64,000 nt of DNA from an uncultured Pelagibacteraceae bacterium (GTDB lineage Bacteria > Pseudomonadota > Alphaproteobacteria > Pelagibacterales > Pelagibacteraceae), in the NCBI GenBank assembly GCA_902554335.1, contig CACDOD010000003.1, forward strand, positions 1-64,000, read 5' to 3'. Position numbers and translations under genes: made by a program. Under the pieces are notes generated by a model. That model searched no databases. It was not told the origin of the DNA and saw only the letters and a program-made list of their open reading frames with translations. Positions 35,804 to 38,527 of this stretch are shown here, in pieces. Positions within the stretch are counted from its first letter, which is position 1, and each line of letters starts with the position of its first letter.

Positions 35804-35889
35804 GCGGTCATGCTGAAACTGGTAGACAGGCACGGTTGAGGGCCGTGTGGGCCTAGCCCATGAGAGTTCGAGTCTCTCTGACCGCACCA
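35804..35889 (+). tRNA. tRNA-Leu (anticodon GAG), CCA encoded
   Basis: Acceptor GCGGTCA/TGACCGC, anticodon stem CACGG-TTGAGGG-CCGTG, long variable arm TGGGCCTAGCCCA, T-arm GAGAG-TTCGAGT-CTCTC, ACCA end. Confidence 0.97.
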
Positions 35890-35918: not shown

Positions 35919-35931
35919 GGGCGTTCTGTTG
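35919..35931 (+). repeat. Candidate att core, copy 1 (displaced tmRNA end)
   Basis: GGGCGTTCTGTTG, identical to 36581-36593. Confidence 0.7.
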
Positions 35932-35976
35932 TCCGTCCCAATTCAACTTATAACAGAATATAACACTTTTTGAATA

Positions 35977-35997
35977 GGTACATAGCAGGGTACATAG
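35977..35997 (+). repeat. Two GGTACATAG direct repeats (35977-35985, 35989-35997)
   Basis: Exact 9-mers, 12-bp spacing, followed by inverted repeat CATAGTT-A-AACTATG (35993-36007). Confidence 0.8.
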
Positions 35998-36061
35998 TTA
36001 AACTATGATTTCTTTGTGACGACTTTGTAATTGAGATTTTTTTCTGATATGTAATTCTCAA

Positions 36062-36484
36062 GTGAAATTAAATTGGATTATTTTTGTAACTGGATGGATG
36101 TCATTCAGAGCAGTTGGGTCAGGTTTGTTTTTGTTTTGGATCTTTACTGAAAATGAGCGTTCGGCACCATCCGAATGGATAGTTCCTTTTGTGGGCGACT
36201 TTTTTATTGGGATAACTGCTTTATTTTTAGTTTACCACATTATAAAAAAACCAAGCACTATACTATGGGGTCTTTTGCTGTCTTGGAATGTGATTGGTTT
36301 GTTAGATTTAATCGGGGCGATAAATGTAAGTTTTGTTGCTCCTTATGGACCTATACCAGAAATAGGATTTAATGAATTGGCAGTAAGATCTATTTTAATT
36401 TTAAATACTTTATTACAGATTTCTTGTATTTACCTATTGTTTCAAAAAGACATAAAAGAATATTTTAAAAAAAGTAAATTTTGA
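36062..36484 (+). CDS. Hypothetical small multi-pass membrane protein (GTG start)
   Basis: 140 aa with about four hydrophobic segments (WIIFVTGWMSF..., FIGITALFLVYHI, ILWGLLLSWNVIGLLDL, ILILNTLLQISCIYLLF). Confidence 0.65.
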   Translation: MKLNWIIFVTGWMSFRAVGSGLFLFWIFTENERSAPSEWIVPFVGDFFIGITALFLVYHIIKKPSTILWGLLLSWNVIGLLDLIGAINVSFVAPYGPIPEIGFNELAVRSILILNTLLQISCIYLLFQKDIKEYFKKSKF

Positions 36485-36497
36485 GTTTTGAAGGTAT

Positions 36498-36528
36498 GGT
36501 ACATAGTCAGTACATAGTAGGTACATAG
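36498..36528 (+). repeat. Three G/A-GTACATAG direct repeats (36498-36506, 36509-36517, 36520-36528)
   Basis: GGTACATAG, AGTACATAG, GGTACATAG at 11-bp spacing. Confidence 0.8.
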
Positions 36529-36579: not shown

Positions 36580-36840
36580 GGGGCGTTCTGTTGCCAGGTG
36601 CCCCAAACCCCGTTACTTAATTAATAAATTAATTAAGCTGCAAGTGCGTAACTTTCGTTAGCATTTGTAAAATTGCCCATTAAGGCGGAACAATACCTGA
36701 CGAAAGAATAACTTTTAGACACCCGTCGATCCTAATTCACCCCCGTTATTGAAAATGGTGGAGGTGGTGGGTACTGCCCCCACGTCCGTAATGGTTATTA
36801 CGAAATTCGTTTATCGCCATAGTTGGAAAACCAACTATAT
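36580..36840 (-). ncRNA. ssrA: Transfer-messenger RNA, circularly permuted two-piece alphaproteobacterial type; predicted tag ending (T)NANESYALAA
   Basis: Minus strand: acceptor piece ...GGACGTGGGGGCAGTACCCACCACCTCCACCA (3' end 36756), 11-nt spacer, coding piece GGGGGTGAATTAGGATCGACGGGTGT (5' end 36744). Acceptor stem GGGGGTG/CACCTCC pairs over 7 bp (one G-U). Tag codons ACA AAT GCT AAC GAA AGT TAC GCA CTT GCA GCT TAA (36668 to 36633). Terminal hairpin GGGGC..CTG-GCAA-CAG..GCCCC. Confidence 0.92.
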
Positions 36841-36904: not shown

Positions 36905-38527
36905 TTAAGGTACTGTTACTAATATTTTTTTACCCAGAATATTCATTTTAGAAAAACTATTTTTTCTTTCTTGGATCCAATCCATGTATTTGTAAATTTT
37001 ATCATTATGATAAAATTGATTATTTATAAACGGATTATATCCATAGCTTTGATTTTCTGAGACTAATCTATCTATATTTCGACCGAAAAAAATTATTAGT
37101 ACTATTACTAAGATTAATTTTGATTTTTTTTCAAATAAATAAAAGTTAATTGTACTACTATTAAAATAAAAAGAGATTGGTAAAAATATTAATAATGCAA
37201 TTAAGTGATATCCTCCATACCTTAATTGTGGATGTTTAAAAAACCACTCTAAAAAAATTACAAATAGGAAAATATAAATAAAAATAAACTTATTAAGATT
37301 GAACATATTATTTTTTTTAAAATTAGATTTTAAAAAAAATGTTAAATAAAAAATAAATATTAAAATTGCCAAACCTATTAAAAAGTCACTGACTTTATTA
37401 AAAAAATATATATTCATCCAATTTGGAAACCAATTCATTCCACTAATATAAAGCTCCTTATTTTCTACAGAAAAATTTGGCATAGCACCTGCTTTTGACC
37501 AAAGTTCAAACCACATATTATCGTGAATAATTAATCTTCTTGGTAACGACCAAGAAAGATCGTAGAAACAAATAAAATCTGCTGGATATATAATACATCC
37601 AGAATTAAAAAAATTATAAGTTAAATAAATAGTAACAAAAATTGCTGAGTAGAAAATTGAAAATTTTTTAATTATATCAATAAAATTTTTTCTCCAATAA
37701 TATAAAAAAATTAATCCCAAGGGCAGATATAGCAAATAAATAGATTTTATACTCACTAAGAAACTTAAAAGAATAGAAATAAATAAAAATAAATCCAAAT
37801 TATTTTTATAATTCTTATTTTGATTAATATTCCTCAAAATAACAAAACTGATTAAAATTATAATAAAAACAATTATCATGGCAGACCTATCTACGCCATG
37901 CTCACCAATTCTATAAAAAAAAATATTTATAAAAGAAAAAAAGATTAATGATAAAAAGTTTATTATTTTGAATTTATTAAAATTATTTTTAATAAAAATA
38001 AAATATACTAATATTAAATTTGCAAATCCTAAAACAAAAACAGGATATATCTGCATCAAATAAATCCCAGTTCCAGGCAAATAAAATAATGAGTTTAGAA
38101 AGAACAATGAAGAGGCATTTCTGAACCCGGGATTAACATGCCCCAAACCAATGGGATGTTCCATTTGTGTTAATAAATAACTGTATGGAAAGTGATAATA
38201 AGGAAAATCATCATGAGTTTTTGCTGAAAGTATAAAAATTATTAAAATTGTAAAAACAAATAAATGAGATTTAAAGTTTTTTTTTAAATCTAATGACCCT
38301 TTTTTTATTATCATAAGACATAACAATCCAAAAATTAAAATAATCGAATTAAAAATATAATTATGAACAAAAAAGGGTGCGGTCACATATGAAATAAATG
38401 TTAAAAAACTTAATCCATAAAAACCTAGAAAGCCAAAATTTCTTATTTTTAATCCTAAAATTTTAGAAAAAAATAATCCATAACCTACAATTGAAAAAGA
38501 TATTAGAAAATAATTAATAAAAAACAT
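36905..38527 (-). CDS. Large multi-pass membrane protein, GT-C glycosyltransferase-like (putative)
   Basis: 540 aa with many TM segments; HDDFPYYHFPYSYLLTQMEHPIGLGHVNPGFRN loop motif. Confidence 0.55.
   Translation of the reverse strand: MFFINYFLISFSIVGYGLFFSKILGLKIRNFGFLGFYGLSFLTFISYVTAPFFVHNYIFNSIILIFGLLCLMIIKKGSLDLKKNFKSHLFVFTILIIFILSAKTHDDFPYYHFPYSYLLTQMEHPIGLGHVNPGFRNASSLFFLNSLFYLPGTGIYLMQIYPVFVLGFANLILVYFIFIKNNFNKFKIINFLSLIFFSFINIFFYRIGEHGVDRSAMIIVFIIILISFVILRNINQNKNYKNNLDLFLFISILLSFLVSIKSIYLLYLPLGLIFLYYWRKNFIDIIKKFSIFYSAIFVTIYLTYNFFNSGCIIYPADFICFYDLSWSLPRRLIIHDNMWFELWSKAGAMPNFSVENKELYISGMNWFPNWMNIYFFNKVSDFLIGLAILIFIFYLTFFLKSNFKKNNMFNLNKFIFIYIFLFVIFLEWFFKHPQLRYGGYHLIALLIFLPISFYFNSSTINFYLFEKKSKLILVIVLIIFFGRNIDRLVSENQSYGYNPFINNQFYHNDKIYKYMDWIQERKNSFSKMNILGKKILVTVP

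Follow-up and report, generated by a model that had tools for sequence, protein, structure and literature searches.

Tycheposons are large marine elements that target tRNA genes. Cluster K mycobacteriophages, such as CrimD, integrate at the tmRNA gene; Pixie, a Cluster K phage whose attB lies in a tRNA-Lys gene, possesses a direct pair of arm sites on the left and a triplet on the right; and related Cluster K integrases differ in arm sequence (PMC3203893). CIMEs retain attL and attR, have lost their integration genes, and accrete in tandem at one att site (PMC5704250). PICMI is a 6.1-kb phage satellite that lies beside fis in Vibrio and encodes an integrase and a DUF5906 primase, and the gene set of this type comprises int, alpA and a DUF5906/DUF3987 primase (PMC10803314).

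The locus described here lies in a window of 64,000 nucleotides (the whole stretch of DNA that was analysed) from an uncultured Pelagibacteraceae bacterium, in which two clusters of the motif GTACATAG sit at the ends of a small element beside the tmRNA gene. These arrays are very likely (probability about 0.88) to be arm-type sites of a tyrosine integrase, two on the left and three on the right, that flank the two halves of the attP of a 0.66-kb cassette lacking an integrase, at the tmRNA 3′ end of SAR11 (Pelagibacter). As in the K1 phages, the core is shared with the tmRNA 3′ end; as in Pixie, tandem direct arm repeats of ~10-12 bp lie on both sides in a 2 + 3 arrangement; and, as among the Cluster K phages, arm sequence varies among related integrases. 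Unlike in Cluster K, the SAR11 arms flank one-gene elements that lack an integrase, the host tmRNA is of the permuted two-piece form, and the core lies in the 3′ hairpin of the coding piece rather than in the tRNA-like T stem. The SAR11 elements resemble CIMEs in standing in tandem at one target gene and in carrying a decayed integrase in some copies, but they are much smaller, at 0.2-2.7 kb in most cases and often with one gene only, occur many to an array, show no sign of conjugation genes, and include several coexisting arm classes. The window element possesses none of int, alpA and a DUF5906/DUF3987 primase, and does not lie beside fis. The arm pair and triplet, the tmRNA target and arm divergence are already known from Cluster K, and integrase-less tandem elements from CIMEs; what seems to be new is the scale and miniaturisation, with one-gene cassettes, in several arm classes, at the tmRNA gene of SAR11.

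The window element, empty sites and copies at other loci

A preliminary description of the window had reported five (G/A)-preceded copies of GTACATAG at spacings of 12, 11 and 11 bp, and had read them as the P and P′ arms of an integrated tyrosine-recombinase attP, just inside two putative att cores. Copies and spacings were confirmed (Table 1), and these five are the only occurrences of GTACATAG on either strand of the window (dinucleotide shuffles: mean 0.79, maximum 3 in 100), forming three tandem pairs as compared with none in 200 simulated windows. Across the whole genome the window arrays are the sole tandem arrays, the 6 further copies all being singletons at approximately the number expected by chance. 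The distance of ~46 bp from the left core to the first arm held, whereas that from the last arm to the core at 36580, given as ~52 bp, was measured as 51 bp. The cores proved to be real direct repeats (GGCGTTCTGTTG is present twice against 0.00 expected); the right one forms the 3′ hairpin part of the permuted tmRNA gene, and the left one starts 29 bp past tRNA-Leu, as placed by ARAGORN. The reading as P and P′ arms is supported by the geometry, the matched motifs, the adjoining recombinases and the empty sites in relatives, all of them features of sequence.

The element consists of arms, one ORF and arms, and is inserted exactly at the core. Its single 140-aa ORF, between attL and attR, has no family match in Pfam, PADLOC or PHROGs, and no integrase match was obtained for the element. 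On the far side of the tmRNA gene, a 540-aa membrane protein ORF without a Pfam match (36905-38527, minus strand) sits between tmRNA and thyX; the gene is absent from this position in several other genomes.

Table 1. Features of the element and its flanks, in coordinates of the 64-kb window.
Feature	Position	Strand	Remarks
tRNA-Leu(GAG), left chromosomal neighbour of the insertion	35804..35889	+	ARAGORN; ~20-40 bp from the tmRNA 3′ end in L268, L270 and L468
Left att core GGGCGTTCTGTTG	35919..35931	+	Direct repeat of 36581-36593
Candidate 7-bp overlap GTTCTGT	35923-35929	+	Inside the left att core
Left core-arm spacer, ending in TATAACAGAATATAACACTTTTTGAATAG	35932..35976	+	Conserved across cassettes with differing arm motifs; 25/29 identical to L591
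Left arm site 1, GGTACATAG	35977..35985	+	
Left arm site 2, GGTACATAG	35989..35997	+	12 bp from site 1
Cargo ORF, 140 aa, GTG start	36062..36484	+	Hydrophobic, probably a membrane protein
Right arm site 3, GGTACATAG	36498..36506	+	
Right arm site 4, AGTACATAG	36509..36517	+	
Right arm site 5, GGTACATAG	36520..36528	+	
Right att core, tmRNA 3′ terminal hairpin, GGGGCGTTCTGTTGCCAGGTGCCCC	36580..36604	+	
ssrA, permuted two-piece tmRNA gene, integration target; tag peptide ANESYALAA	36577..36873	-	Rfam alpha_tmRNA, RF01849, E=2.4e-62; ARAGORN

The 0.66-kb unit is an insertion, given that relatives (L268, L270 and L468) possess tRNA-Leu followed by an intact tmRNA 3′ end and have nothing inserted between the two; in the complete genome at L463, ~120 bp separates the two genes. 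Copies of the window element elsewhere adjoin rnhA (L257, L273, L277 and L260), lie past fabI (L281) or stand in a tmRNA array (L262). These copies are 95.3-99.8% identical over ~645 bp, whereas core genes of the same or related genomes are only 80-88% (rnhA) and 77-83% (thyX) identical, indicating that the element itself has moved by recent horizontal transfer.

Such an element could nevertheless be a dead relic, with arms and cores as the vestiges of an ancient integration and nothing mobilised today, an account that fits the lack of an integrase in the element, the truncation of the recombinases found by GTACATAG arms and the lack of a helper in the viral collections searched (IMG/VR). It is considered unlikely, however, given that copies of 95-99.8% identity occupy differing chromosomal sites in diverged species and that the arms are intact in most copies, which points to recent movement. 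A relic concerns present activity and is compatible with the identity of the repeats as arm sites. The window element most plausibly represents a derivative that lacks an integrase and is moved in trans, and elements of its size are probably still mobilised in this way, as the near identity of the copies suggests.

Cassette arrays and arm classes across SAR11

Tandem GTACATAG arrays are present in 12 of 201 same-genus genomes and in 5 of 247 order-wide genomes, with 2 genomes common to both sets and one belonging to another genus, many of the surveyed genomes being partial single-cell assemblies, and a GTDB scan returned 13 Pelagibacteraceae loci with such arrays, in part duplicating the genus and order genomes. 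The pattern read backwards, as a control, gave no arrays in the 201 genus or 247 order-wide genomes. The arrays start 60 or 61 bp inside a left core or 68-81 bp ahead of a right core, with two exceptions that have no core at the expected distance and have apparently lost it: L019 in the genus and order set, and L151 among the GTDB-scan loci. The arrays are therefore not scattered away from att sites, the outcome that the preliminary description had named as counting against it, since they keep a fixed distance from the GTTCTGT core. At one locus (L644; G517:C1 ~179050), a solo element of ~150 bp consists of a core, 60 bp, three GTACATAG, a spacer and a core, without cargo, and looks like the product of a deletion running from the left to the right arm array.

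The sequence GGCGTTCTGTTGCC is present in 94 of 121 genus genomes, often as several copies in the same orientation 0.2-2.7 kb apart. At tmRNA, as many as about seven cassettes stand in tandem: the array at L254 (G157) comprises eight cores and seven cassettes and ends at tmRNA, and six cores are present at L461 (G114). A cassette typically contains one to four small ORFs, and the cargo ranges over restriction-modification-like, HNH and McrB-like proteins and many small secreted-type proteins. Among the cargo that could be identified, one element has two N6/N4 methyltransferases and, with them, a possible restriction partner; HNH_4, MrcB_N with NOV_C, DUF4268 and a formyltransferase were also recognised.

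From 73 regions, 85 distinct core-to-core segments were extracted; GTTCTG was demanded for a core call, so the invariance of the core is partly by construction. A de novo repeat scan recovered an exact tandem 8-mer at +56 to +62 in 29 of 36 distinct non-tmRNA-like leaders, spaced by 12 bp in 28 of the 29 (shuffles: mean 0.16, maximum 1), and in 0 of 42 tmRNA-like leaders. The leaders, de-duplicated yet related by descent and not phylogenetically independent, fall into only about five motif classes: GTACATAG (10 leaders), ACTTCRTTG (16), and ACTTCAATG, GTGTATGC and ACTTCGTG (1 each). A tandem repeat is also present at the right end of 10 elements, and in 9 of these it equals the motif at the element's own left end, with a spacing of 11 or 12. 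Against L591, a cassette with ACTTCATTG arms, the window matches at 25 of 29 spacer positions but at only 3 of 20 arm positions, indicating that the core-arm spacer is homologous between arm classes. Such constancy of geometry, combined with repeats that change in step at the two ends, is the hallmark of cognate arm-binding.

Most one-gene cassettes possess arms at the left end only, ~30-100 bp ahead of the cargo start, and in many of these the cargo runs with its stop codon right up to the next core; the leader may double as a promoter, the right arms may have diverged or not be needed, or the copies may be immobile. The repeats could also be viewed as transcription factor operators or activator sites for the cargo genes, carried with the cassette leader, as many cassettes have arms only upstream of the cargo ORF and a third copy stands ~30-35 bp before the ATG. 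This account is improbable, however, given that the same motif occurs in tandem downstream of the cargo, facing the core, in all right-array elements but one, that the motif varies between cassettes while the core distance is constant, that recombinase genes abut the arrays, and that the arrays are absent elsewhere in the genomes. A combined role, in which the integrase also affects the promoter, is possible.

A second att-like core, TTACATTCGCCTACATTCGCA, lies downstream of groEL (L584, L597, L626-L631 and L656; for example L627:5368-5485). Leaders with the groEL-type core keep the ACTTCATTG arm geometry, and a full-length recombinase relative of 414 aa adjoins the core in L656, which suggests related integrases with a different target.

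Recombinases beside the arms and searches for a helper

In larger relatives, genes for divergent tyrosine recombinases terminate next to the left arms. Contig CACHTB010000003 (L148, L170, L651 and L663) carries a 3.4-kb GTACATAG element (L663) made up of a core, two arms, a recombinase remnant, other ORFs, three arms and a core. The remnant (L148) lies on the opposite strand and encodes a 202-aa C-terminal fragment with tyrosine recombinase-like segments (GGFRPGLE, RPIYVYRHS and NTSVQMINQHY), and L148 and the window leader can be aligned across both arms as far as ~+125, past which the recombinase fragment of L148 follows. A genus search with this fragment recovered two more decayed copies, L652 and L654, directly inside GTACATAG-type leaders that are partly degenerate. 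An order search recovered an intact 434-aa recombinase (L655/L666), the stop codon of which abuts CTTCGTTG arms; these arms and a core of the same kind adjoin the ppdK 3′ end, and in relatives ppdK is found on the tRNA-Leu/tmRNA side. The 434-aa protein is 37% identical to the L148 fragment and matches PHROG integrases (E=1.2e-13), and its matches to Pfam Phage_integrase (PF00589) and a SAM-like domain are weak and below the curated cut-off. The L148 fragment alone has no Pfam or PHROG family match, so its identity rests on the L655 alignment. Further remnants in another genus (L657 and L660) have the possible repeats TGTGTTGTT. At the ppdK 3′ end, L666:11300-17001 (oriented) carries the intact tyrosine recombinase, a resolvase (PF00239) and several unknown genes, and its right end was not reached.

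A tyrosine recombinase gene beside attP is thus lacking in the window element, decayed in L651, L652 and L654, and intact in L655. In the SAR11 genus and order searches, only truncated recombinases were found directly beside GTACATAG arms, the intact L655 enzyme having CTTCGTTG arms; the autonomous relative envisaged in the preliminary description was therefore recovered for the GTACATAG class in decayed copies and not as an intact element. Of the att regions that it had proposed to search, those of SAR11 genomes have arrays at the cores, and the IMG/VR contigs gave no real attP.

A pelagiphage origin of the arms was rejected on the latter result, which covered arm pairs, the core with GTACATAG and the core with ACTTCRTTG. 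IMG/VR and INPHARED yielded neither a recombinase of the L148/L655 kind nor an attP with core and arms, relatives of the L655-type recombinase were lacking in IMG/VR, a home-made profile detected no integrases in the IMG/VR contigs with GTACATAG pairs, and the window element had no match among INPHARED phages. The tmRNA-like core in IMG/VR is confined to phage-encoded tmRNA genes; among its contigs, those at L372, L386, L393, L397, L421, L431, L637 and L638 encode permuted tmRNA genes that share their 3′ hairpin with SAR11.

Other recombinases at or near this target were considered. A 6.2-kb element (L433:4151-10324) carries a conventional phage-type integrase and a DUF5906 primase between direct repeats and ends at the tmRNA core, and an integrase of the same type, 52% identical to that of L433, lies in L607, which ends at the same core. 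L433 is PICMI-like in its size and in pairing an integrase with a DUF5906-type primase, but unlike PICMI it targets tmRNA, has arm-like repeats of its own (TTGCTTAAC), and has no identified AlpA. Its integrase is distinct from the recombinases that abut GTACATAG arms, and was ruled out as the cognate GTACATAG enzyme given its own TTGCTTAAC repeats. Xer sites lack arms, and host Xer was ruled out on this ground and because other recombinase genes abut the arrays. Most SAR11 genomes, including nearly all of those in the genus, possess a single divergent Xer-like tyrosine recombinase (for example G000:C6:11383-11925) that scores far below the XerC/XerD equivalog cut-offs.

Integron cassettes are likewise tandem, with one gene each, a shared recombination site and varied small cargo, and the SAR11 cassettes differ from them in site structure, arms and recombinase family. 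A reading of the core as a folded, attC-like site on which IntI acts would fit the tandem one-gene cassettes with a common site between them and a core able to form a hairpin, but is very improbable given the arm arrays on both sides of the sites, a core that is tmRNA sequence and by inspection lacks the attC R''/R' boxes, and the failure to see an IntI, with the resident tyrosine recombinase at 26 against the NCBIfam integron-integrase cut-off of 265 bits and the L433 integrase also far below it.

Proposed mechanism and significance

In the favoured reading of the repeats as integrase arm sites, an integrase from a larger relative would be supplied in trans and would bind the arms via its N-terminal domain. 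The core would be recombined with the tmRNA 3′ hairpin or with a resident core, the exchange probably falling within GTTCTGT. The element's own end, AAGGGGC, would then restore the tmRNA 3′ end, since in filled tmRNA sites AAGGGGC comes from the element side; Islander describes such restoration of the 3′ end for tRNA and tmRNA targets in general (PMC4383910). Repeated integration at the regenerated core would give rise to tandem cassette arrays, and the process may be ongoing. The attP of the excised circle would consist of three arms, ~50 bp, the core, ~46 bp and two arms.

More tentatively, and at somewhat less than even odds, SAR11 may possess an integron-like gene-capture system, in which cassettes of interchangeable cargo are gathered in tandem at the tmRNA 3′ end, and at a second core past groEL, by a divergent tyrosine recombinase family acting in trans, its arm specificities having diversified within a fixed geometry. 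The cassette family is large and apparently undescribed; no description was found in the open-access literature, and subscription papers could hold one.

How streamlined SAR11 cells gain variable genes is poorly explained, and a common att site, defined cassette ends and a candidate recombinase make the question testable. With the core and arm motifs, the cassettes of any SAR11 genome or metagenome can be listed, and the matched arm classes provide a natural series for the evolution of integrase arm-binding specificity.
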